47,851 nucleotides of DNA from a virus: positions 1 through 47,851 of IMG/VR virus record IMGVR_UViG_3300028873_000029. The stretch is one strand, 5' to 3'. Shown in pieces: positions 2,745-35,764 of this stretch. The notes under the pieces were generated by a model that saw only the letters and a program-made list of their open reading frames with translations, made no database searches and had not been told where the DNA came from. Position 1 is the stretch's first letter; every line of letters begins with the position of its first letter. Position numbers and translations under genes: made by a program.

Positions 2745-4041
2745 TTATAAATCTTTCCTTCTCTTCCTTAGTGTTGGACATGGTATTCTGGTCTGTCGCG
2801 CCGAGATTGAACAACTGCATCTTGGCCTTGTTAATCCCGACGAGAAACTTCTTATAGGTGTTCACGTCGTTATATCTATTTTTAATTTGAACGAACTGCA
2901 TCTGACGATCCCGCTCTAGCTCTTCTGACGACATGAGAGCCCAGATATGATCCGCCGTCATGGCGGTGCCAAAACTTTCAGAAACATCTTCCATGCCGGG
3001 ATCAGACGAGGTATAACCCGATCTATTAAATTGAGTCGCGGTGATAATCGGCACCGAGAATTCAACCGATAGACCACGGATTTCTTCACCCACCACCTTG
3101 ACATATTCATAAATGCTGCCACCACCCATCTTCATGGTGGAGGAAAGACAGATATTCAGATAATCAATATAGATGATGTCGGGAACGAAATTCTTCTTTA
3201 ATTTCAATTCCTTGATAACGGCCCGAAAGTTGGCCGAGCCAGCCTGTCGGGTAGGATATTCCTTGACGACTAGCCGTCCTGTCGTCTTGGCCTTCAATCT
3301 ATTGATACTATTAACGAAATGTTCCTTTGGAAGCATTAGAAGTTGATCAACGTCCAAGTCCAGAATGTTCTCGTCAATACGCTGGGAAATCATCTCTTCA
3401 GACATTTCCAAGGTGATATAAAGGACGTTCTTTCCCTGAAGAAGATTATTGGCGGCGAAGGCACACATGACGAAGGATTTACCGACACCGGGACCGGCCA
3501 TCAGGATCGTCAACGTCTTCTGAGACACGCCCCCCTTGGTGATCTTATTTAAGATATCGATATCAAAAGAAATCTTGTTCTGAATCTGGTGATAATATTC
3601 AAAACGAGACTCGGCATCATCAAGATAATCATGCCCAATACTGTTGTCGAAAGTGATGGCACAGGCCTGCGACATGATGTCTGGAATAGCGCCACGATCA
3701 AGCTTACCATCCTTGTCGTCGCAAATCTGAATAGACTTCAGGAGGGCTAGGTAGATGGCCCTGTTCTTGGCGAATTTCTCCGTCTCATTGAAGAGCCAAT
3801 CAACGCTTGTGGCCGGATCAATCTCCAGTTCATCCACAATTTTCTTGCACTCTTCAAATTGTGTGTCATTGACCTTATCCTTGTTGGAAAGATCGATCCA
3901 TGCTGCTTCTTTTGAAGGTAGTGTGTTATATTTCGCGATGTAGCTACCAATAACGTCAAAGACGATCCTATCATGAGCATCCTCGAAATATTCCGGCTTG
4001 ATATATGGAAGTACCTTCCTCGTGTACTGTTCATTGAACAT
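2695..4041 (-). CDS. 41: Replicative DNA helicase, DnaB-like, T4 gp41 type
   Basis: 448 residues aligning by eye along T4 gp41: an N-terminal helical domain (PYIKPEYFED), the conserved linker LNKITKGG before the Walker A loop GPGVGKS (about 183-189), YITLEMSEE, an RLVVKEYPT segment, and a Walker B strand ending IYIDYLNIC near residue 290. It would form a hexamer that unwinds DNA ahead of the fork with the primase at 10183-11193. The ATG at 4041 has no good ribosome site. Homologous residues (RIILSNL before MFNEQ) continue in frame upstream to a possible ATC or ATT start behind AGAAGGA near 4077, so the true start is probably upstream and non-canonical. Confidence 0.95.
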   Translation of the reverse strand: MFNEQYTRKVLPYIKPEYFEDAHDRIVFDVIGSYIAKYNTLPSKEAAWIDLSNKDKVNDTQFEECKKIVDELEIDPATSVDWLFNETEKFAKNRAIYLALLKSIQICDDKDGKLDRGAIPDIMSQACAITFDNSIGHDYLDDAESRFEYYHQIQNKISFDIDILNKITKGGVSQKTLTILMAGPGVGKSFVMCAFAANNLLQGKNVLYITLEMSEEMISQRIDENILDLDVDQLLMLPKEHFVNSINRLKAKTTGRLVVKEYPTRQAGSANFRAVIKELKLKKNFVPDIIYIDYLNICLSSTMKMGGGSIYEYVKVVGEEIRGLSVEFSVPIITATQFNRSGYTSSDPGMEDVSESFGTAMTADHIWALMSSEELERDRQMQFVQIKNRYNDVNTYKKFLVGINKAKMQLFNLGATDQNTMSNTKEEKERFINDTSKKLDKSAFKDFF

Positions 4042-4091
4042 GAGGTTGGATAAGATGATCCTATCGAAATTGATGATGAAGTTCCTTCTAA

Positions 4092-4985
4092 TTACCTATT
4101 TTTAGGAACGTAACATCCGGTCTCTTGAAAACCTGGGAAGGCCTTCGGAGTTGAATTCTGGATGAAAATCCCTCTTTTTCTTAGACCCTGAATTGTATCA
4201 TAGTTCAAGACGGCAATCCAGACCGGATTTGAATTTCTTTCAAAATCCACATTGACGGTATCAAATTTGACATCAGCACCGAACCCGGTTCCCAGACTGG
4301 CGGTAGCATCCATATCACTCGCATAGGTGATGATGGTTCTGCCGCTAGTCTTCACTTCATTACCAACAAAACCTGTTGAATTTCTAAGAGCACCCATATT
4401 TTGAGCAGGCACGGCGCTAGAGCAATACATCTGCTGCGATGACTGACTCAAACCGACCCCACCCATCGTGGTGATGGGTCTATCACTACTCCACATCGGA
4501 AAATTACCAAACTGTGGCTGGGGATATACATACGCATTAGTATGTAAATAACGAACCACTGGCGTCACAGGAGGAATGTATCTTTCCTCAAACACCATGC
4601 AACCTATCACACCTTGGTTAGAAGTGTCAACATCAAACCCCTCTGATTTTAGAATTTCTACGTAGGTGGTATTGGCCTTGGCATCCTGTGGTCTAAACTG
4701 GAATGCAGCAGCCTTGTTGGAGTTGATCTTCCAGCCGGGAATGGTGACATAACTATAAGGTCCAACAATATATCCTGTTGACTTATCGGATGCCGTCTTG
4801 CCTTCAATAACGTCAAGACCATCGACCGAAAATACGACTTCTACTTTTCTGTGGGTTTTGTTGTAAAAATACAACTCATATTCTGTGCCTTTTCGGCCCT
4901 CGACGTAGGTGTCGGCACCATGTTCATATTCTTTTAATGGAGCATTCTTAACACGGACTTCGAACGTAAACTTAGAGCATTGCAT
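4092..4985 (-). CDS. Hypothetical beta-rich protein, possible virion component
   Basis: 297 residues, beta-rich, without a signal peptide or membrane segment. The first half has a VDGLDVIEGK ... GYIVGPYSYVTIPGW ... AAAFQF pattern that I have seen as a conserved uncharacterised domain in phage and bacterial proteins; the second half is rich in Ser, Thr, Asn and Gln. I do not assign a function. A perfect TATAAATA late-promoter box lies at 5047-5054 with a ribosome site AGAAGGAG before the ATG, which suggests late expression and hence a structural or lysis-stage role. Confidence 0.6.
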   Translation of the reverse strand: MQCSKFTFEVRVKNAPLKEYEHGADTYVEGRKGTEYELYFYNKTHRKVEVVFSVDGLDVIEGKTASDKSTGYIVGPYSYVTIPGWKINSNKAAAFQFRPQDAKANTTYVEILKSEGFDVDTSNQGVIGCMVFEERYIPPVTPVVRYLHTNAYVYPQPQFGNFPMWSSDRPITTMGGVGLSQSSQQMYCSSAVPAQNMGALRNSTGFVGNEVKTSGRTIITYASDMDATASLGTGFGADVKFDTVNVDFERNSNPVWIAVLNYDTIQGLRKRGIFIQNSTPKAFPGFQETGCYVPKNR

Positions 4986-6370: not shown

Positions 6371-8848
6371 TTACCAAGACAAAATTTCGTCATTTTCAGA
6401 TAAATCTTTTGCCTTTTTCCATCCATCAACCGTTTTTAATTGGTGGTTAGCAGTCAACTTTACTATGGTGTTATCTTCCATAGTAATTTCATATACTTCG
6501 CTTAAACCATTCACATATAATTTAGTAATTTCCTTTTCTTCATTATTTTCATCATATACATACATTTTTCTGTCAGGAGTTATCCAATTACCACCATCCA
6601 TTTCAAATATATCATAAGAAGTCAATTCTCCAAATATAGAGGCAATAGATTTATTTCCTTCCGTTGTTTTAATTTTTGTATCTAAAGATATACACCCTTC
6701 TGGCTTGATACAGGTGATGGCGACGGAGGCATTGATGCCGATTTCCTTGGCCACCTTCATATTTGTTCTGATGGCTTCCGCCTTCATAGAAGTTCGGAAA
6801 TTTTCAAAATCAAATTGAGCATTTTCATCAAACTCATTATTCTCATAGGCCTGACCATTCGTCCAACCATTATCGAAGACGCCATTGAGAGAGACACCCA
6901 GCAAACGCTCTTCCTCACAATTACGCTGCCACTTCTTTTTCAGATATTTAAAATCTGTGAAGCAAGACTGGAAGGTGCCAAGGATCGTCGCCAACTTGAT
7001 TTTATTCAGGATGGATTGCTTACTGTCATCCTCATAAATCTGGACTGATGTCAGGTTACAGAATTCATAGGGACGTAGAATGATTTCCGCGCAATTATGG
7101 ACAACAATAAAATCTGCAATAAAATTATGAGTGTCTTCCACACTAAGATCATAAACATCTGTAATCGGTCCTTCTTGAATAGAAATTACATTTGCATATT
7201 GATGTAAATTGCTTTTTAAATCTTCTGGGATAGGAATAATTACCTTGGCCCCATGTCTAGAATTTTCGGGAGAAATAAATCCAATATTATTTACACATTT
7301 ATCATTATATCCCACAACCCCATGATTATTTGGCTGTTCTATGCCGGTTAAACGCGCATGATCTTCATGAGACAAACATTCTAAATTATCAATATCATTA
7401 TTATATGTATCTCCATCAATATGATGTACATCATATCCGACAGGAATTTTTCCATAGTAAGCCTCGAAAACTAATCTATGTTCCATCACAATTTCTTGTT
7501 TTGTTTGTGTGGTTAATTTTACACCAGAATATGCTGCCCCCCTACGATTTCTGGTAAGATGAACTACTCTATCACCAATTTTTATATTCTGTGCTTCCAG
7601 CCACCCACGACCTTCTACATAAATCTTATGGTCGGGTGTACAAATCAATTCTTTACAAGAAGAAATTGTAATTTTCAATGTATTAGCCTTTTTCTTACTA
7701 ATCCAAGAAGCAGAAGAATTTCTAATACAAAGTTTACCATTTTTGTCCATAGAATAAACCATGGTTGGTTCCTTAATATCTTTAATTTTTACTCTTCCAT
7801 GGATCGTTTCGACCATACTATCGGGATGAAGACATGGATTTACCCCGAATTCATGGTTGGTGTCACGTTGCGGAGCATCCTCAAAGTTGATTGAACGATA
7901 TTCGTTGGCGTTGTCAATCACGCGCCTGATGGCCTTGCGGGAGACGATCCCACGTTCCCCAGAATGAGACTCGTAAAGGCTCAACCATTCCTTCATGAAG
8001 ACGCCCATGTCGGGCTTCTCATTATATACAGCCGAGTTATTGGCGAGGCGACGATAAGGATTGGTCTTCCACCACGTCCCGCTCTTGGCGTCGCGCATAC
8101 GGTCATCATTAAGGTCGGAGAGCGAGATAAGCGCCGAACGACGCACACCACCAACCACGACGATATCCGCCACCTTACAGGCTATATCATGTGCCTCTAG
8201 CGTGGTGAGACGACGACCAGCCGCCTTCTTGAAGGTGTTGAGTGTGAAGCGTAGAAGTTCGACCAATGGGTCCGGTCCACTAGAACGACCACCCATGGTC
8301 TTCAGACGAGCCCCGGCAGGCCGAAGCTTGCTCATGTCCCACTTGGGTATTTGACCAATCATCAACAGGCTCAAAAACTCGCGGTAGCCCTTGGACCAGC
8401 CAAGGCGAGAGTCATCAAAGATGATGGTTGTGTCTGACTCAAAGAAGGTGTCGGGCAACTCAGGAAGCTGCTTGACGTTATCCGACTCGACGGAATAGCC
8501 GACGCCTGTGCCTGACATGAGGATGGCCATTTCCTCATCGAACGACTTCATGTCATCCATCGGAAGGTAGGCGCAATTATACAGGGCGACATGGTTCTTC
8601 TTCGCGGCGGGACCAGCCGTCATCAGAGCCCTCATCGAAGGCATGATATCATGGTTCAGAACGGCATTGTATAATTCGTCATAGTAAGGAGCGATATCGT
8701 AGTTATGCTTCTCCTTCAAAGACTCCCCAATGAAATCAAAGTATCTTTTTACGGTCTCTGACCAAGTCTCTCGTCTATTCTTACTATCAATGTATCGTGC
8801 ATACCGGCTCGTAAAAATGAACTGTGAATATAGTGAATCCTTAAACAT
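6371..8848 (-). CDS. nrdJ: Class II ribonucleotide reductase, N-terminal part with a complete HNH intein and a split-intein N-fragment
   Basis: 825 residues. Extein residues 1-338 carry the monomeric B12-dependent RNR pattern (RYARYIDSKNRRETW, NCAYLPM, GTGVGYSVES). A full intein occupies 339-585 after GVNP. Extein resumes at 586 with CAEIILRPYEFCNL, the substrate-radical region. After KPEG (718) a split-intein N-fragment runs 719-825 and ends at a stop. Mature enzyme needs cis-splicing of the first intein and trans-splicing with the 5618-6283 product. It starts at ATG 8848, overlapping the upstream gene by 8 bases. Class II chemistry uses adenosylcobalamin and no oxygen. Confidence 0.92.
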   Translation of the reverse strand: MFKDSLYSQFIFTSRYARYIDSKNRRETWSETVKRYFDFIGESLKEKHNYDIAPYYDELYNAVLNHDIMPSMRALMTAGPAAKKNHVALYNCAYLPMDDMKSFDEEMAILMSGTGVGYSVESDNVKQLPELPDTFFESDTTIIFDDSRLGWSKGYREFLSLLMIGQIPKWDMSKLRPAGARLKTMGGRSSGPDPLVELLRFTLNTFKKAAGRRLTTLEAHDIACKVADIVVVGGVRRSALISLSDLNDDRMRDAKSGTWWKTNPYRRLANNSAVYNEKPDMGVFMKEWLSLYESHSGERGIVSRKAIRRVIDNANEYRSINFEDAPQRDTNHEFGVNPCLHPDSMVETIHGRVKIKDIKEPTMVYSMDKNGKLCIRNSSASWISKKKANTLKITISSCKELICTPDHKIYVEGRGWLEAQNIKIGDRVVHLTRNRRGAAYSGVKLTTQTKQEIVMEHRLVFEAYYGKIPVGYDVHHIDGDTYNNDIDNLECLSHEDHARLTGIEQPNNHGVVGYNDKCVNNIGFISPENSRHGAKVIIPIPEDLKSNLHQYANVISIQEGPITDVYDLSVEDTHNFIADFIVVHNCAEIILRPYEFCNLTSVQIYEDDSKQSILNKIKLATILGTFQSCFTDFKYLKKKWQRNCEEERLLGVSLNGVFDNGWTNGQAYENNEFDENAQFDFENFRTSMKAEAIRTNMKVAKEIGINASVAITCIKPEGCISLDTKIKTTEGNKSIASIFGELTSYDIFEMDGGNWITPDRKMYVYDENNEEKEITKLYVNGLSEVYEITMEDNTIVKLTANHQLKTVDGWKKAKDLSENDEILSW
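6374..6694 (-). other. Split intein N-fragment (IntN), 107 aa
   Basis: Begins with Cys at residue 719 of the upstream RNR gene (CISLDTKIKTTEG, block A) and contains a block-B-like TANHQLKTVDGWKKA segment before ending in ENDEILSW and a stop. Inserted exactly after the RNR motif KPEG. Confidence 0.88.
7094..7834 (-). mobile_element. Intein with HNH homing endonuclease inside RNR
   Basis: 247 residues (339-585). Block A starts CLHPDSMVETIHG, block B is CTPDHKIYVEGRGW, and the end has VYDLSVEDTHNF and VVHN before a +1 Cys. The middle contains an HNH nuclease: MEHRLVFEAYYG, then DVHHIDGDTYNNDIDNL, so this intein is probably mobile. The insertion site GVNP/CAEI is the well-conserved RNR site also known to harbour inteins in other phage and bacterial RNRs. 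Codon use is more AT-rich than the exteins. Confidence 0.92.
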
Positions 8849-9191
8849 CTTGCTCCTTATTATTTTTATTTTTTATGAAATCTCTGTAATCGTCTTTTAA
8901 ATCACCGTTGTCGTCATAACAACCATATCCATTGTTGACGTATTGATCATATGCTTCTAACACGGATACTGGTAACGGCGGTTCTTTTTCTTTTCTTGTG
9001 ATTATTACTTCTTGTGTATAGAAGTTTCCATCATAATCACAAAGACATTCACCTATCACATAATGTTGAAAAACTACCTTCCAAATACTAGACTTGATTT
9101 GTTGACGTGTATACTCATTATTAGGTTCGAAGAGATGATAAGAAACAGCCGCCTTTATATCTTCAATAAAATTTAGTGGTGTTTCACTCAT
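8841..9191 (-). CDS. Hypothetical protein, 116 aa
   Basis: Mixed alpha/beta acidic protein with no family recognised. It overlaps thyX by an ATGA junction and the RNR gene by 8 bases, so it is co-translated between two DNA-precursor enzymes. The C-terminus is rich in Asp, Asn and Lys. No catalytic motif seen. Confidence 0.6.
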   Translation of the reverse strand: MSETPLNFIEDIKAAVSYHLFEPNNEYTRQQIKSSIWKVVFQHYVIGECLCDYDGNFYTQEVIITRKEKEPPLPVSVLEAYDQYVNNGYGCYDDNGDLKDDYRDFIKNKNNKEQDV

Positions 9192-10141
9192 AACGTTTGC
9201 TCGATAATCTTACGGTACTGAATCCATGGAAAGGCCAGATTACTTCTGATATAATCATCGTCTCCACCATATCCCGTAGGGTCTTCTGTCCATGTCGCCA
9301 TCTTGGCCTGATGCTCGAAAGGACTTGCATGAATTGGATTGGCGTCACGAAGCAATTCAAACCGTTGAAATTCCTTTTCCAGACTGGCGTTACCGTCGAA
9401 AGGAGCGTAAGAAACTCTGGCGCATCTGGCGACGGAAAGCTTCAGAAGTGGAATATATAATGCTTCTCCATTATGTTGATTATCATTTTCCAAAATAGAA
9501 GTATAATCATCTACAGAAATATAAGGAAGATGCCACTCCGTTGGATAAAGAACTTGGTATACGCCTTTAGTTTTTTCTTGGATGACCCGAGCGATTTCCT
9601 TGTCCATGACCTTGGCCAACTCGCGGATTTCCGGCATGGCGTCTTTATGAATACGGAGGGCGAAGTAGTTATCCCAATCGGTGGCGGTGATCAGCGTATC
9701 AATGTAGCCGAACCACTCCAGAGGACGATTGGCCCACTGTTTATGAACACCCTTGTATGACAACCACTTGGAGAAACGTTGTGTCTCCTTGGCGAAACGA
9801 TTCCATTCCTTTTGAATTTCGTCCTGCTCTTCGATAGAAAACTTTTCAAAAGATTGCATTCCCGGCTGATTTTTCATGAAGTAGGGTGTATAAATTTCTT
9901 CTGCCAGTAAATTCTTTACAGGCACGGCCCGACTAGAACGAGCGTTGCGTGAAAATGCCCTATGCGTTATTACTTCAGAATGAATGATGCGTGGATAGCG
10001 GATTTGGATTGTGATAAGCGGTTTACCACATGAAGGCCAAGAAGTAAGTGTTTTACCACCTAAAGAATCGAAAGTAAGTGTTTTACCACATGAAGGCTCG
10101 GAAATAAGAATTACCTTAGCCTGAAAATCAGTCTCTTTCAA
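9188..10141 (-). CDS. thyX: FAD-dependent thymidylate synthase ThyX
   Basis: 317 residues. The ThyX signature lies at residues 60-71 (THRAFSRNARSSR), preceded by the usual IRYPRIIHSE strand; an NRPLEWF ... NYFALRIHKDAMPEI region and a late YTS/ARVSYAPF region complete the flavin/dUMP fold. The reaction methylates dUMP with methylene-tetrahydrofolate and FAD/NADPH. The start is TTG, with AAGGAG 6 bases upstream. Odd: residues 14-43 contain three tandem 10-residue units around GKTLT that are not needed by the fold (see repeat). A dCMP deaminase at 38595 would feed the dUMP pool. Confidence 0.92.
   Translation of the reverse strand: MKETDFQAKVILISEPSCGKTLTFDSLGGKTLTSWPSCGKPLITIQIRYPRIIHSEVITHRAFSRNARSSRAVPVKNLLAEEIYTPYFMKNQPGMQSFEKFSIEEQDEIQKEWNRFAKETQRFSKWLSYKGVHKQWANRPLEWFGYIDTLITATDWDNYFALRIHKDAMPEIRELAKVMDKEIARVIQEKTKGVYQVLYPTEWHLPYISVDDYTSILENDNQHNGEALYIPLLKLSVARCARVSYAPFDGNASLEKEFQRFELLRDANPIHASPFEHQAKMATWTEDPTGYGGDDDYIRSNLAFPWIQYRKIIEQTL
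10013..10102 (-). repeat. Triplicated 30-base unit in the thyX N-terminus
   Basis: Three tandem in-frame copies of a 30-base unit, each containing GGTAAAACACTTACT or a close variant, encode PSCGKTLT-like decapeptides. Copies 1 and 3 share SCGK; copy 2 has LGGK. The normal ThyX strand resumes at ITIQIRYP. Confidence 0.85.
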
Positions 10142-10164
10142 AAATAGCTCCTTGGTGTGTTGGT

Positions 10165-10172
10165 TATTTATC
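10165..10172 (-). promoter_or_regulatory. Late-type box GATAAATA upstream of thyX
   Basis: Variant of the late box, 24 bases before the thyX TTG start. Placement would give a leader holding only the ribosome site. Moderate support because thyX is expected to be expressed early. Confidence 0.35.
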
Positions 10173-10182
10173 GATTTTGGGT

Positions 10183-11193
10183 TTATGAGAAGTTTCGCGA
10201 GATAATCTCTGCTTGGGCTCTAAGTCCTTGGAAAGTATGAGAAGAAATGACTTCTTCGACATATTTTACGGACAGACCCCCTAAAATCATCGCATTGATA
10301 TCTTTTTTTTGTATGGACCGTGGCCAGATGACCACTTTATATCCCGCCTTGATGGCCTTCTCGATTTTCTTCTTGGTTTCGGGATGCCGAGGCTCATTAT
10401 CATAACAAAAAACAAGGTTCTCTTTGTCGAAATTCTTCATGGATGATACCATGTCATTACCCAGCGTGGCAAGAGAATTTTCTAAAAATAGAGCATCTAA
10501 TGGACCTTCTAAAACGATAGTGGTCTTGGTCTTATCCCATCGTTCTAGGCCGAAGACATGCGGCACATTCTCGTCAAGAATAATATTGATATACCGTTGA
10601 CTGTTTTTTGGATCGAGGGATCGACCAGCAAAGCCGAAGAAGTCGCCACTCTCCGACAGGAAGGGGATCACCAGCCGCTCTTCGTCATGCTTCAATGCTC
10701 CCTCACTGAATTTATTAGGAATCAAATCATTTGTATATTTTCGAAAGTTGGGACACTTGAACAGCAACCCCAGACGATTCTCTGGAATCTTTCTCCCAAG
10801 CACATACTGTTTCATGGCGTCGTCGTCAGGAAGGTCTTTAATCGAGCAGAGAGAAGGCGTGACCAGCTTCGACTTGAATTCTGGTGCCTTGGTCTTATAA
10901 TCCAAGACCTGTTCCTTCTTGGGTCTAAAAAGCTTCTCGCGGATATATTCCCTGAAGAGACTGGCGTCTTGATCGTTGAGAAAATCATCGAAGCTGCGGG
11001 ACTTGCCACACTTATGACACTTAAAAAATGTTGTTCCGTCATGTTCGAACACGTCACCACGAGCCCTACGCGGATTGCGCTTGGAGTCTCCACAATATGG
11101 ACATGAGAAATTATAGAGATTGTCGGATTTCTTTTTGAAATTTCTAAGCTGGGCCGACACGAAGCTAAGATATTTAATTACTAAATAATTCAT
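10183..11193 (-). CDS. 61: DNA primase, T4 gp61-like
   Basis: 336 residues: an N-terminal zinc-ribbon (CPYCGDSKRNPRR near residue 29, then CHKCGKSRSF near 57) followed by a TOPRIM-like catalytic core with VLEGPLDALFLEN and a later CYDNE acidic segment. It would make RNA primers for lagging strands together with the gp41 helicase at 2695-4041. Cytoplasmic. A good ribosome site GGAGGG precedes the ATG. A consensus-like promoter lies just upstream (11215-11243), so this gene likely heads its own transcript. Confidence 0.92.
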   Translation of the reverse strand: MNYLVIKYLSFVSAQLRNFKKKSDNLYNFSCPYCGDSKRNPRRARGDVFEHDGTTFFKCHKCGKSRSFDDFLNDQDASLFREYIREKLFRPKKEQVLDYKTKAPEFKSKLVTPSLCSIKDLPDDDAMKQYVLGRKIPENRLGLLFKCPNFRKYTNDLIPNKFSEGALKHDEERLVIPFLSESGDFFGFAGRSLDPKNSQRYINIILDENVPHVFGLERWDKTKTTIVLEGPLDALFLENSLATLGNDMVSSMKNFDKENLVFCYDNEPRHPETKKKIEKAIKAGYKVVIWPRSIQKKDINAMILGGLSVKYVEEVISSHTFQGLRAQAEIISRNFS

Positions 11194-28455: not shown

Positions 28456-29505
28456 TTATTCGCGTGTAAACTCCTTGAAGTCGGCCTTCTTATTAAACTC
28501 TTCAAGGAGAATATTTTCTACCTCTGCGAGTTGTAAAAGAGGGCTGGTGGCCTTAACCTCATGAAATTTACAGTCATATTCAACGAGAAGGTCTCGCCAG
28601 AATTTCATATCCGTCTCACGCTTATCACCGCCATAACGGAGTTGATCCGGCTCGAAAGGTATACTATCATTCATCAGAAAATAAATGTCAGATTTAGAAA
28701 CTTTAAATAGGGTTTCACAAATCTTAGGCCATGAACCTTTCCACAGTTTATAGTATCCAATCGTGGAAAGCAAGTCCGTATCTTGAAGAATGAATGGAGT
28801 TAATTTCTCTCGCGCCACCGTCTGAGAAGCAAATTGTCCATAGACAATGTTTAACATCTTCTCATCAGTAATTTCAGGACCGACAGCCTCAAGATAACCA
28901 CGAGCCCATTCTGGAACTCTTGTACTATCGAAAGACCCCCAATTAAATACGGCCCTAGTCATGGTGGATTTGCCCACAGACTCTTGTCCAAAAAATGTGG
29001 CCACGACACCATACTTCCGTCGAAGAGAAGGAACTAAATCATCAAAATTAGACAACGGATTGTCTCTGAGATGCGTCGCCTTTGACGCATTGATGACTCG
29101 ATCAATATCAAAGGGAATGAAGCTTGCGCCGATAACCTTTGATAGTTCGATCCCATAATTTTCTGAGGCAAAGAGAAAATCAAACTTAGTCACGCCTGTT
29201 TCATCTTCGATCATCTCACACCAGAAGTTCCAAAAGTCAGGATGATCTGGTGGATTTTGAGGAACGTCATCATTCTGATTTAAATGAAAAATGAGATTAC
29301 AGGAATCATAATAATTCTGAAATTCATTCTTCAAGGCCAGATAACGAACCCAACCATCCATCGGCTCGAAACTACGAGAGTTGATGAGAACATGCAACGT
29401 GTAATCATCGCCCTCGGCCTCAAAAAAATCAAGACCAAACTGAACCAACGCCTTATGACCAACGGTCGGAGGAAGAGCCGTCATCACGATGATACCACGT
29501 CGCAT
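28456..29505 (-). CDS. nadR: NadR-like NMN adenylyltransferase/ribosylnicotinamide kinase
   Basis: 349 residues in two halves. N-terminal (1-165) nucleotidyltransferase fold: TALPPTVGHKALVQFGLDFF with the HxGH-type GH, and NASKATHLRDNPLSNF matching the C-terminal motif of NMNATs. C-terminal (170-349): P-loop GQESVGKSTMTRA, then a Walker-B-like LQDTDLL and LRYGGDKRETD lid. Both together convert nicotinamide riboside to NMN and NAD. It directly follows the PnuC gene, so transporter and enzymes form a NAD salvage pair. Confidence 0.88.
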   Translation of the reverse strand: MRRGIIVMTALPPTVGHKALVQFGLDFFEAEGDDYTLHVLINSRSFEPMDGWVRYLALKNEFQNYYDSCNLIFHLNQNDDVPQNPPDHPDFWNFWCEMIEDETGVTKFDFLFASENYGIELSKVIGASFIPFDIDRVINASKATHLRDNPLSNFDDLVPSLRRKYGVVATFFGQESVGKSTMTRAVFNWGSFDSTRVPEWARGYLEAVGPEITDEKMLNIVYGQFASQTVAREKLTPFILQDTDLLSTIGYYKLWKGSWPKICETLFKVSKSDIYFLMNDSIPFEPDQLRYGGDKRETDMKFWRDLLVEYDCKFHEVKATSPLLQLAEVENILLEEFNKKADFKEFTRE

Positions 29506-31336: not shown

Positions 31337-32293
31337 TTAGGCTTTGTTGGCCATGTCAACGGCTAGGCTGAAGGCCTTCAGCTTCTTATCCTTTACCTGT
31401 CCATACCACATATTCTCGACCCGCGCTTCGTCGGTTCGGCCCATCAGGTGATCCGTGACGTAAGTGACGGCATTGAGAGCCTGCCACCAAGTTCCCGGCC
31501 CGAATTCAACACCGGGCTGATAGGCCAGAGCCTTGACGGCCAGAGTAGCATTCGAAGAGGCTTCCTTCGGCTTACGCTTGGAATTTTCCTTGACGACCTG
31601 TACCGGGAAGACTTCGTTAAAATATTCCTTGACAGTCTCTTCAGAATACCGCTTGGAACCGAGGAAAGCCGCCGCCTCACCATATTGATCGAATTTCTCG
31701 TTGGCGATACCCATCGTCTGCTTCGCGGCGGTGGCGTCGAAGACCACCCGATGCGAAGATTTAAAGGCGTTGTCAGAAACACCGTTGAGGGCCATCGTCA
31801 GCGTGTTGTTGCAGACGACGCGGGTAGGGGTGAACCGAACGTCAATGGACTTACCATAACGATGTGTGTTGGTGAAAAGAAGGTAGCTCTCGACACGATC
31901 CCCACCGAAGAGGGTAAAGGACTTGTTAACCTTGGCCAGAGCCCATACATACTGACCCTCACGCAGGGAGCCAGCGGTTTCCATCGTCATGTCACCAGCA
32001 TCCACAAATTCGCGGAAGAAGTCGAAGGCAACCTCGTTCTGTAAAGGCTCCCAATCGTCTCCCACCACATCCATCAGCTTGCCATCCGACATGCGACGCA
32101 GGGACTTGTTCTTCGTCACCGGACCATACTTGTCACCCATTTCACACTTTTCAACTTCCCAATCGCACTTCGCGGCGACGAGCATTTCATGAGCGGTGAG
32201 ATTTCCGGCAACCTTGTAACCAAGGGAATGCCAAGGGGTTTCGCCTCCCCACTCTTTACCAACATAAGCCATCTCTTCTACCATATGTGCCAT
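31337..32293 (-). CDS. DUF932-type phage/plasmid-like protein
   Basis: 318 residues from ATG 32293 (AAGGAT upstream; longer frame overlaps a divergent gene). The N-terminus TPWHSLGYKVAGNLTAHEML and the middle with YLLFTNTHRYGKS and RVVCNNTLTMAL belong to the DUF932/TIGR03299 family, found on phages and plasmids. Function unknown, some relatives lie near recombination genes. No membrane segment. Ends at a strong terminator, starts near the divergent late gene at 32409. Confidence 0.8.
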   Translation of the reverse strand: MAHMVEEMAYVGKEWGGETPWHSLGYKVAGNLTAHEMLVAAKCDWEVEKCEMGDKYGPVTKNKSLRRMSDGKLMDVVGDDWEPLQNEVAFDFFREFVDAGDMTMETAGSLREGQYVWALAKVNKSFTLFGGDRVESYLLFTNTHRYGKSIDVRFTPTRVVCNNTLTMALNGVSDNAFKSSHRVVFDATAAKQTMGIANEKFDQYGEAAAFLGSKRYSEETVKEYFNEVFPVQVVKENSKRKPKEASSNATLAVKALAYQPGVEFGPGTWWQALNAVTYVTDHLMGRTDEARVENMWYGQVKDKKLKAFSLAVDMANKA

Positions 32294-32381
32294 TTTAAAA
32301 TCCTTGATCTGCGGTGAAGGCCAGTCCCTCATCCATGTCCAACTTATAAATGATTTCGTTTTCGCTGTCAATGATAATTTT

Positions 32382-32389
32382 GATAAATA
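32382..32389 (+). promoter_or_regulatory. Late-type box GATAAATA
   Basis: 20 bases before the plus-strand start at 32409, followed by a GGGGAG ribosome site. Confidence 0.55.
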
Positions 32390-32408
32390 TTCAAAAAAGG
32401 GGAGAAAA

Positions 32409-32777
32409 ATGTTTTCACAAGAGGTTTTCGCTGGTGCTGACTTCACATACACGTCAAACGTATCGCTTTCGAACAGCGCGACATGGACGGCGAATGCCTT
32501 CCTTACGACGCTAGACCTTCTGGACGTCTTTAACGGAAATTCAGAGATTGGACTTCTGACGGCAAATCTCGCCCCTATCGTCACCAACACCCCCAACGCC
32601 ACCAATTATTCCCTGACGCTGAGTGCTTCCGGTAGCCTGACGGCGCAATGGATTGCCAACTCGGTCAATATCAATGAGCGGGTATTATATCTTTTCACAA
32701 AATTTACAAGTAATACGGGAGCCGTGCAGACTGGTAACACGGCTCTCCTTCGTGTCAAGGCGGCGGTTTTAAATTAA
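32409..32777 (+). CDS. Putative virion structural protein, 122 aa
   Basis: Starts at ATG 32409 after GGGGAG. MFSQEVFAGADFTYTSNVSLSNS then a beta-rich Thr/Ala/Asn sequence with SLTLSASGSLTAQWIANSV. Composition and a late box (32382) suggest a virion decoration or fibre-type protein. Not recognised further. Convergent with the 32774 gene; they overlap by 4 bases. Confidence 0.55.
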   Translation: MFSQEVFAGADFTYTSNVSLSNSATWTANAFLTTLDLLDVFNGNSEIGLLTANLAPIVTNTPNATNYSLTLSASGSLTAQWIANSVNINERVLYLFTKFTSNTGAVQTGNTALLRVKAAVLN

Positions 32778-33022
32778 GCCGCCTTTCGGTAATCTTCTTC
32801 CTCTTCCTCGACATTGACCACAGGCGCGGAGAATCCCGGCTTGGGTGCCAATATGAAGCGATGGGACTCAAATCCCATATTTTTCACTTCCTTCAGACGA
32901 TAAAATTCGGCTGCACCAATAAAATAATTGATAATCACTGTATATTGTGAGCCTGTCTTAAGATACATCTCCCTGCCGCGATTGTTGATACAAACAACCA
33001 CGAACCCTATTTCATTTAACAT
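32774..33022 (-). CDS. Small SH3/KOW-like accessory protein
   Basis: 82 residues. GFVVVCINNRGREMYLKTGSQYTVI then FESHRFIL is the small-beta-barrel pattern shared with the genes at 41887-42231 and 42224-42649 in this window. No function known. It overlaps the upstream membrane-protein gene by 11 bases, so it is the last gene of the channel operon. Confidence 0.55.
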   Translation of the reverse strand: MLNEIGFVVVCINNRGREMYLKTGSQYTVIINYFIGAAEFYRLKEVKNMGFESHRFILAPKPGFSAPVVNVEEEEEDYRKAA

Positions 33023-33524
33023 TATATTCATCCACCCCATTGTTTGTGTATGTATCTGGTTTCAGTTCGTTATTATCACCTAGCACAAATCCTCCTATAT
33101 GAAGATGAGAAGTTTGATTTGTGTCGGCGTCACCATATTCTGTCACGTCTCCCTGAATTAAAACATCTTGAGGATGCTTGGCGAAAGCCTTATTCAAATC
33201 ATCGACCAACTTTTGATTAAATTGCGCGATGTAGAGAGTCGGATAATCTTCCATAATGAGAAGGTAAATACTCTTCTTATCAGGTGACATTTCAAAACTT
33301 ATCACCCTAGGACTGTTTTCCTTCGTAAATATGTGATGATAGAAGGGAATGTTCATAATCGGTCGGGCCGTTCCCAGAAGATCATGAATTGTGTAATAAG
33401 AGAAACCCAAAAATAAACAGTATATAAGAGCAGCCAGACCCATAAGCTTCGGTCTCACCATCAAGGATGTAATCAAAAATAGTACAGCCGTCATACCAAA
33501 GAAGACAAATGAAATTACTGTCAT
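33012..33524 (-). CDS. Membrane protein, third gene of the MotA/MotB-like operon
   Basis: 170 residues. ATG 33524 is used because it overlaps the upstream stop by ATGA. Two membrane segments (VISFVFFGMTAVLFLITSL and MGLAALIYCLFLGFS) are followed by a soluble alpha/beta domain (SFEMSPDKKSIYLLIMEDYPTLY) that probably lies outside the membrane. Not recognised. Translational coupling suggests it is a subunit or regulator of the channel made by the two upstream genes. Confidence 0.65.
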   Translation of the reverse strand: MTVISFVFFGMTAVLFLITSLMVRPKLMGLAALIYCLFLGFSYYTIHDLLGTARPIMNIPFYHHIFTKENSPRVISFEMSPDKKSIYLLIMEDYPTLYIAQFNQKLVDDLNKAFAKHPQDVLIQGDVTEYGDADTNQTSHLHIGGFVLGDNNELKPDTYTNNGVDEYNVK

Positions 33525-34165
33525 TGATGAGCCATCCACTTATCGTTTGAATTAATAGAACTGTCTATGATTTTACCATCCTCACCGACCCTGAAATTAA
33601 ACATCGTCTTCTCTTGATTTTCTGCCGTGAATGTATGCACCCCTCTCATAGTTTTAAAACGACCATCCGAGACGCTTGCACCCTTTAGTCTGATAATCAT
33701 TGTCGCCTCGACCGTTCCATTCGGAAATTTCCCAAAGGCGGGACTTGATGCCTGTGTCTCATGGTTAGAGAAATAATAGATATTGAACGTGTATTCTCCG
33801 GGAATAATCTTGTTGGTGCATTCGATTTCCATATTTAAATGTTCAAGATTATTCTGGAAGCCGATAACGTCACGGTAAAGATCAAGTCCCCCGCCATGCA
33901 TGTTGGAGAATCCGATAGGCTTTCCATCTTTGGGTGACTTACCCCAGATATCAAGATCGATATCACGATCATTCGGCCAATAAATTTCGGCACAAAGACT
34001 ACCCAGCATCACACCATCATTATTATTTTCACTGTGTGGAACCATAGAAACCACCACGAAAAGCATAAAGACGAAGGCGGCGAAGGAAACCATCACGTCG
34101 GCCAGAACATAACCAAACAGCTTTTCCTCTAGCGACTCATTAAACTTCGCGCTTAGATCGGTCAT
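33521..34165 (-). CDS. MotB/ExbD-like single-pass membrane protein with a periplasmic beta domain
   Basis: 214 residues. Residues 17-40 are one membrane helix with YVLADVMVSFAAFVFMLF, the MotB-type plug signature where the Asp carries protons. A beta-rich domain follows with IYWPNDRDIDLDIWG, a DUF2135-like pattern, and a mixed C-terminal part. There is no OmpA-type peptidoglycan domain. It overlaps its neighbours on both sides by 4 bases. The MotA-like partner is the next upstream gene. Function not known; see findings. Confidence 0.72.
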   Translation of the reverse strand: MTDLSAKFNESLEEKLFGYVLADVMVSFAAFVFMLFVVVSMVPHSENNNDGVMLGSLCAEIYWPNDRDIDLDIWGKSPKDGKPIGFSNMHGGGLDLYRDVIGFQNNLEHLNMEIECTNKIIPGEYTFNIYYFSNHETQASSPAFGKFPNGTVEATMIIRLKGASVSDGRFKTMRGVHTFTAENQEKTMFNFRVGEDGKIIDSSINSNDKWMAHQ

Positions 34166-34605
34166 TCACCATTCACCAAGAAGCTGTTGAACCTCGTCCA
34201 TAGAAAGGCTACGAGGCCGATCAAGGTCGTATTGAACAAAGTCAACGCGCCTGAAATCATATTTTTCAAAACGAATTGAGGGTCCGACAAGTCCTGAAGT
34301 CCCATGATCATATGCACGAAACCGATCAGGGTGCCACAGAGGCCGATGAAAAGAAACTGTCCCAAGACATAATTCAGATATCTGTTGATCTTCTTCCCGC
34401 CATATCCATAGGTTTGATCGTTTTTGAAGGTGGCGAAAATTCGTAGAAAGATGCCTGTGACGAGTAGCAACGCCAGAACGTAGGAGATGTGGGTCACATC
34501 GTTTGTAAAGATGTAACCCACAAATCCATAAAAGTATCCAACAATGAAGAGAGCCATGATGAAGACATTAAAAAACACCAGACGAAATGTATTTGTGTAC
34601 CGCAA
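34162..34605 (-). CDS. MotA/TolQ/ExbB-like proton-channel subunit
   Basis: 147 residues, four membrane helices (8-30, 38-58, 75-100, 118-140). The last two carry the family signature: FLFIGLCGTLIGFVHMI, then ISGALTLFNTTLIGLVAFLW with the paired threonines typical of the ion path. It is about half the usual length, as in ExbB cores. Its start lies just after the RnlA gene, and it is coupled to the MotB-like gene by ATGA. Inner membrane location is expected. Confidence 0.78.
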   Translation of the reverse strand: MRYTNTFRLVFFNVFIMALFIVGYFYGFVGYIFTNDVTHISYVLALLLVTGIFLRIFATFKNDQTYGYGGKKINRYLNYVLGQFLFIGLCGTLIGFVHMIMGLQDLSDPQFVLKNMISGALTLFNTTLIGLVAFLWTRFNSFLVNGE

Positions 34606-34615
34606 AATAATCTCC

Positions 34616-35764
34616 TTAGTAGACCCACTTTAAGTTGCCATTGTCCCAGATAGAACGAGCCTTGTCAACGTTTGTTTGGCTTCCTGTATTCTTTTTTAGA
34701 ATGTCAAGAAGGTGTTGTTTAACTTCCGTGATATTTATAGAAATTTTATCAAAGAAGGTAAAGGCGGTGGCCCGAACATAGGAATTAACCCAATCCTTAC
34801 TTTCAAGGGCGAATTCTTTACGAGTCATATTCGTGGCGTTATAATGTTCAAGCACACCAAAAATGTTGTCGGCCTGTTCATTGAAGTTGCACCAGAATTC
34901 ATATTCAAATTCTTCGAACTTCTCCCGATCAGGCTCAGTCAGAAGCAATCGGAAGTCGTCGGCCATTCCTTCCACCAGAATGGCGATGACATTCTTTTCA
35001 CGCGCCAGTTCGTCCTTGGAGCGATGTAGCAGGCAATATTGATCGGCCTTGATCTTCACCATGGAGCCATCAGACCACCGCACCACGAAGCCCTCTAGGC
35101 CTTCCATAGGCTTTACAGCTTCAACTAGCTCCTGCATCGACGCGACGGTGCCGGGATATTGTTTGACGACATCAACATCAAAAGCAAGAGCAATATGATT
35201 CATTCTTGAATATTCAAGATAGTTTCCAGATACATTATGACGAATTCCGATCAGCACAAGACGATCTTCGGGGTGAGAAATAACAATTCTATTTTGATTT
35301 GAACACCATTCAAAGATGGGCGTCATACTCCATTCTGACATACACCAGTTGGCAAATTCTAGGTATTTTGGATTTTTCTCAACGAAAGCCTCGATCTGTG
35401 GCGTAAGAAACGTCACACCGGCCTTCGAACCCCACGTCATCTTCCCATAGGAAATCATCGTCGTCACCATCGATCCGTCCAGCTTCTCCAAGATTACATG
35501 CGGCTTGGAGAAATCAAGATTCTCGACTAGCGTTTCAGGACGTTCATTGACGTTAAAAAACTTATGAAGGCGTCGAGCCATAATCCGACCATCTTTATAA
35601 AAGATGATCCCACGACATTCCTTTTCGACAGCGTTATGGAAGGTGTCGGGAGTATTGACGATGTAATCGATGACGATGTAATCTTCCTTGTAATTAACGT
35701 GGAAGTTATCATTGCCTCGGATGTGGGGCAGCACGTCGTCAATGGTCTCGATAATTGGGAACAT
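34616..35764 (-). CDS. rnlA: RNA ligase 1, T4 RnlA-like
   Basis: 382 residues. Adenylyltransferase motif I EKLDGSMV near residues 92-99, then YGKMTWGSKAG, FEWCSNQNRIVI (motif III/IIIa area), EGFVVRWSDG (IV) and MVKIKAD (V) follow T4 Rnl1 order. In T4, Rnl1 reseals tRNA cut by host anticodon nucleases; a tRNA cluster follows here, so the same use is likely. It starts at ATG 35764 with AAGGAAA. Its first 237 bases overlap the tail of the next gene in another frame. Confidence 0.9.
   Translation of the reverse strand: MFPIIETIDDVLPHIRGNDNFHVNYKEDYIVIDYIVNTPDTFHNAVEKECRGIIFYKDGRIMARRLHKFFNVNERPETLVENLDFSKPHVILEKLDGSMVTTMISYGKMTWGSKAGVTFLTPQIEAFVEKNPKYLEFANWCMSEWSMTPIFEWCSNQNRIVISHPEDRLVLIGIRHNVSGNYLEYSRMNHIALAFDVDVVKQYPGTVASMQELVEAVKPMEGLEGFVVRWSDGSMVKIKADQYCLLHRSKDELAREKNVIAILVEGMADDFRLLLTEPDREKFEEFEYEFWCNFNEQADNIFGVLEHYNATNMTRKEFALESKDWVNSYVRATAFTFFDKISINITEVKQHLLDILKKNTGSQTNVDKARSIWDNGNLKWVY

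Follow-up and report, generated by a model that had tools for sequence, protein, structure and literature searches.

Layout of the Q-R-S operon

The IMG/VR virus record IMGVR_UViG_3300028873_000029 is a virus contig of 47,851 bases, which was analysed over its whole length and is called the window below. Its minus strand carries, at 33012-34605, three genes, here named Q, R and S, that may encode an ion-driven membrane motor. An earlier reading, made from the sequence alone, had described three ATGA-joined genes at this place as a MotA/ExbB plus MotB/ExbD-like membrane operon. The open reading frames (ORFs) lie where that sequence-only reading put them, and both junctions are ATGA overlaps (Q/R at 34165-34162, R/S at 33524-33521). 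The features of the operon are:

34612-34617, minus strand: ribosome-binding site AAGGAG, read from the sequence, six bases before the TTG of Q
34162-34605, minus strand: Q, a MotA/TolQ/ExbB/ZorA-type four-helix membrane protein of 147 amino acids (aa) with a TTG start
33521-34165, minus strand: R, a single-helix protein with a predicted outer beta domain, 214 aa, its start overlapping the Q stop (ATGA)
33012-33524, minus strand: S, a two-helix protein with a predicted outer C-terminal part, 170 aa, its start overlapping the R stop (ATGA)

Hydropathy gave four membrane segments in Q, one in R and two in S, the same make-up as described earlier, and the structural models of Q and R agree with it. 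The listed ORF of S spans 33012-33539 with a GTG start at 33539. The ATG at 33524, which gives 170 aa, is the more likely true start, because its Met is a nearly invariant column in the alignments that hold the window.

Conservation of the gene set

Rhizobium phages detected with tblastn supplied the sequences for four-row profiles, and separate IMG/VR scans were then made with the R and Q profiles. Q lay upstream of R, on the same strand and within 2 kb, in 41/41 distinct viral contigs, and S followed R within 2.5 kb in 40 of them (it is missing in L026). In five of the 41 contigs the version is that of the window itself, with 99% identity in Q and 100% in R. These copies were left out of a further S count because the S profile held window S; S stood behind R in 35 of the 36 contigs that are not near-copies of the window, and in the window and its five copies it was placed by position and a weak match. 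The identity of the other relatives to the window is 20-34% for Q and R and 13-21% for S. The 27 contigs fetched by R alone contained Q in 27 cases, S in 26 and a trypsin-like protease in 16, and a viral-contig scan with R of L014 returned only L014's own contig. Small extra genes may separate Q, R and S, for instance in RHph_X2_25 and TM3_3_14B. The identification of Q and R is not due to chance, since profiles built without the window single them out among the 318 window ORFs (9.7e-23 for Q and 3.6e-30 for R). Q-R-S is therefore a real unit, with fixed order on one strand and within 2-2.5 kb.

The protease gene lies within 2.5 kb upstream of Q in 21/41 viral contigs and is possibly a fourth part of the set in temperate phages. 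Examples are L003:4148-5047 and L120:10989-11633, the latter in a prophage-like locus; in phage 16-3 the protein is annotated as typically periplasmic.

Among 50,697 phage records, R was found in 27 (25 Rhizobium and 2 Sinorhizobium), and each of four R queries (16-3 p040, L026, L014 and RHph_I1_18) gave the same 27. With tblastn, window R as query returned three records and window Q one. Once eight GenBank/RefSeq duplicates are removed, the 27 records represent 19 phages, all rhizobial: five 16-3-like phages (59-69 kb), three of 68 kb, ten of 152-159 kb, and RHph_I1_18 (171 kb). N34 and P10VF, among the 152-159 kb carriers, are filed under Pootjesviridae. Sinorhizobium phage phiM6 is in the collection and is not among the 27 R records. 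The trio was read in seven phage records, where the annotation of its genes gives a hypothetical protein or a p-number; in phage 16-3 of Sinorhizobium meliloti the set is p038-p040-p042. Profiles found Q and R in all of N34, P10VF, N3_13 and I1_18, and S in I1_18 and P10VF, while S was placed by position and by eye in N34 and N3_13. That the carriers among the named records are all rhizobial suggests an envelope target particular to those hosts.

Relatives also occur in bacteria. A genome scan gave four Rhizobiaceae loci, one per genome. At least 6 of 297 Rhizobiaceae genomes matched, five strongly, as did at least 27 of 398 genomes of the phylum at E ≤ 0.01 (16 of these at or below 6.9e-34); the counts are lower bounds because not every first-look candidate was scored. 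Fifteen strong loci were opened. Q stood upstream of R in 15/15, one of them (L120) being prophage-like and bearing the protease, and S was present in 14/15 (nine by profile, five more by blast clustering). The bacterial Q proteins are longer, 183-303 aa as called with unsure starts. In a chromosomal clade of ten loci (L125-L134), a calcineurin-like metallophosphoesterase and a Ser/Thr kinase-Usp fusion follow in 6/10, and a sensor kinase is divergent in 9/10; the downstream side of L134 is cut by the contig end. These kinase, phosphatase and sensor kinase genes were taken from coordinate-checked blast and Pfam results, gene clustering having given many false frames there. L131:6394-8624 is an example, with chromosomal Q-R-S, then the calcineurin-like phosphoesterase and the Ser/Thr kinase fused to a Usp domain. 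A plasmid of Azospirillum brasilense (L137, NZ_CP059450.1 717000-760000) bears two Q-R-S operons about 24 kb apart, and by eye, with no search of the flanks made, they showed no clear partner gene.

In the R tree, whose root is arbitrary, a well-supported split separates the 16-3 group from the Pootjesviridae-like group, and bacterial rows fall with the second of these; in consequence, at least two phage lineages likely carry the set. The place of the window is unsure because its branch is very long (2.65). Q-R-S is a gene set common to several kinds of rhizobial phages and to bacterial genomes, and is not confined to a single T4-like phage. The T4-like label itself was not shown: PF07068 (gp23) was unmatched in the window and in a 107.5-kb contig with the same operon, in a comparison where the control genomes were unmatched too.

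The motor-type protein Q

The Pfam family MotA_ExbB (PF01618) matched window Q with E = 1.1e-4 and 22.4 bits, the curated cut-off being 22.9. It matched 29 of 33 Q family members at E ≤ 0.1 (best 6.1e-9); Q of N34 (23.0 bits), N3_13 (26.2) and I1_18 (26.8) scored above the cut-off and that of P10VF (20.1) below it. By sequence profile the Q family thus belongs with MotA/TolQ/ExbB, the window copy itself being borderline. The profile of the 33 Q proteins, compared with PDB sequences, matched ZorA at 3.3e-4 and MotA at 4.8e-4; 13 of the 14 sequences at E ≤ 1 were ZorA, MotA, PomA or other MotA/TolQ/ExbB chains, and the remaining one was an HLA chain at 0.75. NCBIfam gave only MotP at 0.028. A match of window Q to EamA (0.0021, under its cut-off), found in 1/33 members, was judged to be due to chance.

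The AlphaFold2 model of Q (predicted local distance difference test, pLDDT, 85.6) has four long helices and one short one, at residues 2-25, 28-34, 40-64, 70-104 and 109-145. The last two appear to be the long paired transmembrane helices 3 and 4 (TM3 and TM4) of the motor fold, by a small margin. The first 25 Foldseek rows, none of them significant, were all ExbB, TolQ, MotA, PomA or ZorA. After VIA-align, which re-ranks Foldseek's own list, the top 18 rows were all ExbB, TolQ, ZorA or MotA, with Z of 10.7-9.0. The TolQ/MotA character that had been read from the sequence therefore agrees with Pfam, the PDB profile and the fold. As to the predicted match to the 5:2 motor fold, Q does resemble motor subunits, by a modest margin. 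Window Q stops directly after TM4, its last helix reaching residue 145 of 147, and has no cytoplasmic tail. Two of its residues are of interest for the ion path:

34225-34227, minus strand: Q Thr127, hydroxyl residue in TM4, Thr or Ser in 40/40 phage rows and 15/15 bacterial or prophage rows
34330-34332, minus strand: Q Thr92 in TM3, within a GxxGT motif, variable

By analogy with ExbB and MotA, Thr127 would be at the position of the motor ion path. Residue 92 is Thr in 15, Asn in 24 and Ala in one of the 40 phage rows, and Thr in 11, Lys in three and Asn in one of the 15 bacterial or prophage rows (Thr 26, Asn 25, Lys 3 and Ala 1 over all 55 Q). Gly88 and Gly91 are invariant in 55/55. The sequence-only reading had expected conserved threonines in homologues; a hydroxyl is kept at Thr127 in 55/55, and Thr92 varies.

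The membrane helix and predicted outer domain of R

The features of R, which the AlphaFold2 model (pLDDT 84.2, predicted template modelling score 0.71) shows as a helix at residues 2-41 followed by a beta domain, are:

34097-34099, minus strand: R Asp23, at the N-terminal edge of the membrane helix and MotB-plug-like, Asp in 37/37 phage rows
34040-34096, minus strand: R transmembrane segment, residues 24-42, from hydropathy (model helix 2-41)
33950-33958, minus strand: R DxD motif (Asp70, Asp72), invariant in 33 alignment rows
33524-34012, minus strand: R outer domain, residues 52-214, predicted TerD-like beta-sandwich fold, from structural rows of the model

The loss of this Asp in homologues had been named beforehand as the result that would speak against a motor; it is kept at the helix edge in 37/37 phage R, the window included, with an offset that varies by one turn. 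In window R it stands directly before the hydrophobic core, like most other phage R. With regard to a possible calcium binding of the TerD kind, D70, D72, D99 and E113 are invariant in 33 rows. No Pfam match to an OmpA-like or peptidoglycan-binding domain or to the MotB plug was found in 33 R members at E ≤ 0.1, in line with the earlier remark that no peptidoglycan domain is visible. Of the profile searches proposed at that time, those with MotA/TolQ/ExbB succeeded for Q and those with MotB plug families failed for R. The MotA/MotB-type reading of the pair thus stands on profiles, fold, Asp and operon, and on hydroxyls at one of the two positions.

The beta-rich outer domain seen from the sequence is present in the model, and its predicted fold is TerD-like. 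The best structural rows were titled TerD or TerD-like (Z 10.8, 9.5 and 9.0), together with SAV2460 (10.3), whose function is unknown; behind them came a radial-spoke chain and another row (8.8 and 8.7), and the next row was at 6.5. The best TerD row covered 139 residues with a root-mean-square deviation of 3.9. A resemblance of motifs to TerD was put to a profile comparison and did not hold up, hhalign giving a probability of 0.5-2.2% and Pfam no TerD match in 33 members. As the TerD-like fold has no sequence-profile support, we take the fold as shared and do not claim descent.

Kinship of R with DUF2135-like domains is weakly supported by profile matches at E 3e-5 and 9e-5, both from single comparisons. 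A 430-aa open frame (L079:1429-2718) also holds a DUF2135-like domain, preceded by a hydrophobic segment, and the gene beside this frame presumably resembles srfB. Among PDB sequences, the R profile matched nothing beyond a subtilisin-like protease (0.016-0.019) and a ferredoxin (1.5), and PHROGs gave for R only the weak unnamed family phrog_1735 (0.018).

The third gene, S

S has two hydrophobic segments and a predicted outer part bearing short conserved motifs. It was first recognised by eye, and the earlier S profiles contained window S, which makes their matches to the window and its five copies circular. An S profile of 44 rows without the window placed window S first of 318 ORFs with E 0.0026, and one of 31 rows missed it. 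With hhalign, window S gave E 1.9e-5 and a score of 37.1, and no score exceeded 23.9 among 60 shuffles or 20.0 among 42 other ORFs. Searches of PHROGs, NCBIfam and PADLOC gave no match of S to a named family; the only PHROGs row was the weak, unnamed phrog_9950 (0.2).

Comparison with known systems

In MotA, a large cytoplasmic loop meets the rotor. The MotAB/PomAB stator (PDB 8gqy) shares with Q and R the four membrane helices, a plug-like helix with Asp and the MotA profile match of Q, but Q has no large cytoplasmic loop, R no OmpA-like domain match, and S is a third gene. ExbBD and TolQR (PDB 5sv0 and 9kpz), which are outward-acting ion motors, lead the structural rows of Q (Z 10.7 and 10.3), with ZorA tied at 10.2. 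They differ in that R has no ExbD/TolR domain match, no TonB/TolA-like arm was recognised, and Q is much shorter.

ZorAB (PDB 8qyy and 8vvn) provides the nearest solved structures to Q by sequence, with MotA nearly tied. As described in PMC11890865, a transmembrane helix with a key Asp faces a serine/threonine ring in ZorAB; Q and R likewise combine a transmembrane helix with Asp and hydroxyl residues. Unlike Zorya, phage Q has no long ZorA cytoplasmic tail, R has no match to the peptidoglycan-binding ZorB domain, and there is the extra gene S. No Zorya effector (ZorC/D or ZorE) was seen among the neighbours, which were scanned in part with Pfam or PHROGs, and PADLOC gave no match for window R or S.

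The R outer domain shares its fold with TerD proteins (PDB 3ibz and 2kxt; Z 9.0-10.8 over 137-139 residues), whereas no sequence relation between them was detected by hhalign. It shares with DUF2135/YfaP-like domains the motif order W..DxDL...G.Y besides the weak profile matches, but R has no Pfam DUF2135 match and the compared proteins are long open frames of other make-up. We know of no MotB-like helix in TerD proteins.

Viruses bearing motA/motB have been reported from glacier ice and ocean viromes (PMC8290583). The glacier-ice case resembles ours in having a MotA- and MotB-like pair in a virus contig; it differs in that its MotB is reported to have a peptidoglycan motif and in that the passages on it describe no S. 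Among the literature matches listed there was no earlier account of a Q-R-S operon. Q-R-S would work like a 5:2 motor. It belongs to none of MotAB, ExbBD/TolQR and Zorya, because a defining feature of each was looked for and not found.

Gene neighbourhoods

The neighbour upstream of Q in the window is:

34616-35764, minus strand: RNA ligase 1-type gene (Pfam RNA_lig_T4_1 3.6e-31; phrog_562 9.2e-72)

It adjoins the operon, and helicase, primase and reductase genes lie farther away. In N34 and P10VF, the operon is found amid gyrase or topoisomerase, late sigma factor, nuclease and clamp genes, in N3_13 amid DNA polymerase, exonuclease, thymidylate synthase and reductase genes, and in I1_18 amid helicase, nucleotidyltransferase and tRNA genes. 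In the 16-3-like phages, the set is flanked on one side by tail-fibre, lysis or immX genes and on the other by exonuclease, MazG and phosphatase genes. The neighbouring replication and nucleotide genes argue for early or middle expression of the operon, and against a virion or lysis part, as far as gene position can tell. Near the operon of RHph_I1_18 (L071), a metallophosphoesterase gene (3557-4174) lies about 1.3 kb before Q, and a vWA-domain protein (8814-10247) is encoded about 2 kb after S, past the tRNA cluster.

Proposed mechanism and alternatives

We propose, with moderate confidence, that Q-R-S encodes a minimal motor of the ion-driven 5:2 type, whose output is periplasmic and by which the phage alters or protects the host envelope during infection. 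Support for the motor core is good; the purpose we infer. A motor-type Q, a plug helix with Asp and hydroxyl residues make up the ion path in the known 5:2 motors (ZorAB as described in PMC11890865). Q, R and S would form one inner-membrane complex, probably a ring of five Q enclosing two R, together with an attached S. Protons (or sodium ions) would pass between the polar residues of Q TM3/TM4 and the R Asp, and their passage would turn or shift the R pair. Since Q has almost no cytoplasmic part, no inner partner would be driven, and the output would be directed outward via the R domain and S, so that the work would be done in the periplasm by the two R outer domains with S. The phage would make the complex early or in mid infection, with its replication and nucleotide genes. 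The likeliest single use may be to block the entry of a second phage; superinfection exclusion would best fit temperate and lytic carriers alike. More tentatively, and in a form we think rather unlikely to hold as a whole, Q-R-S might be an unnamed class of ion-driven membrane machines with a TerD-like outer domain, resident in bacterial genomes (in part of one clade next to a Ser/Thr kinase and a phosphatase), which at least two phage lineages cut down and took along and with which rhizobial phages alter the host envelope and exclude rivals.

Several observations weigh against this proposal. The Pfam score of window Q falls slightly under the curated cut-off. Foldseek found no match at E ≤ 0.001 for the Q model or, used alone, for the R model. 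The best Z of Q, 10.7, is only modestly over unrelated helical rows, the first of them a designed protein at 8.9, and the tool itself cautions that for helical bundles a Z below about 13 may reflect no more than a common arrangement. Thr92 is replaced by Asn in most phage Q and by Lys in three bacterial Q, and in the chromosomal group-B R (L125-L134; six rows shown) the Asp lies four residues earlier than usual; for these two reasons ion use is not proven for the family. The R family has no Pfam ExbD, MotB or OmpA match (33 members, E ≤ 0.1), and the charge bias around its helix is weak (56 vs 43), so its orientation rests on analogy. The kinship of window S to the S of other phages is weak by sequence. 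Lastly, PHROGs files the family of the adjoining RNA ligase, labelled "RNA ligase and tail fiber protein attachment catalyst", under tail (tail-fibre attachment).

The best-surviving alternative, which we nevertheless regard as unlikely, is a Ton/Tol-like energiser, in which the motor would drive a host periplasmic or outer-membrane partner for nutrients or envelope stability. The ranking of ExbB and TolQ as the best structural rows of Q agrees with it, as do the expected outward output and the stand-alone bacterial operons, two of them on the one Azospirillum brasilense plasmid. Nevertheless, R has no ExbD/TolR domain, and no receptor-type partner gene was noticed in the annotated phage loci read. 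TonB and TolA have one N-terminal helix, and S, with two helices and a short outer part, is therefore unlike them.

A Zorya-related sensor for defence or counter-defence, which would detect envelope damage and signal inward, seems improbable to us. Q matched the PADLOC ZorA profiles (0.0016 for the window, 8.5e-9 for phage 16-3) as well as the ZorA structures, and the calcineurin-like phosphoesterase and Ser/Thr kinase-Usp fusion of the chromosomal clade (6/10 loci) would suit signalling. PD-T4-6 defence kinases match the kinase domain too, though this may reflect only a likeness general to kinases, and phosphatase genes lie near two phage operons (the metallophosphoesterase of I1_18 and a NinI-like one in 16-3). 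However, phage Q ends right behind TM4, R has no peptidoglycan-domain match, and a Ser/Thr kinase is annotated in none of the seven phage loci read.

The ion-channel-like character of the membrane proteins could also indicate a lysis or membrane-timing device, in which a regulated leak of ions through Q and R would help to time the holin or would disrupt the outer membrane; we give this reading little credence. In the 16-3-like L002 and L004, the end of a lysozyme gene lies about 3.5 kb upstream of Q, and the trypsin-like protease upstream of Q in 21/41 viral contigs would fit as well. In contrast, N34, P10VF, N3_13 and I1_18 have no annotated lysis gene within about 6 kb and carry replication or nucleotide genes there instead, and the lysozyme and endopeptidase genes of TM3_3_14B form a separate group; gene position is mildly against a lysis role. 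Moreover, a leak would need no large conserved outer domain.

It is scarcely credible that Q and R are flagellar stator genes (motA and motB) serving as metabolic helpers, as for the glacier-ice virus: virus motA/motB pairs are on record, but that MotB was reported to have a peptidoglycan motif (PMC8290583) and R shows none, the R outer fold differs, Q lacks the large cytoplasmic loop, and S accompanies Q and R in nearly all contigs.

If the ion-driven motor is the right reading, Q-R-S would likely add a branch to the small set of ion-driven 5:2 motors, and, if the motor runs, its output must be periplasmic, so that the outward half of the mechanism could be studied by itself. The TerD-like fold behind a MotB-like helix may connect ion motors to a fold that has long been associated with stress and is also associated with phage inhibition. 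As phage 16-3 carries the set, the question is testable in a classical laboratory system.

Other genes of the window

Pfam or PHROGs scans covered 14 window proteins. An NMN (nicotinamide mononucleotide) adenylyltransferase-type gene lies at 28456-29505 (phrog_3462, 7.1e-51), about 3.5 kb beyond S, and the neighbouring gene at 31337-32605 belongs to phrog_1221, of unknown function (1.6e-62). At 6371-8848 there is an 825-aa ribonucleotide reductase gene (NrdJ-like) with an HNH-endonuclease-like stretch at residues about 424-514, perhaps an intein or similar insertion.

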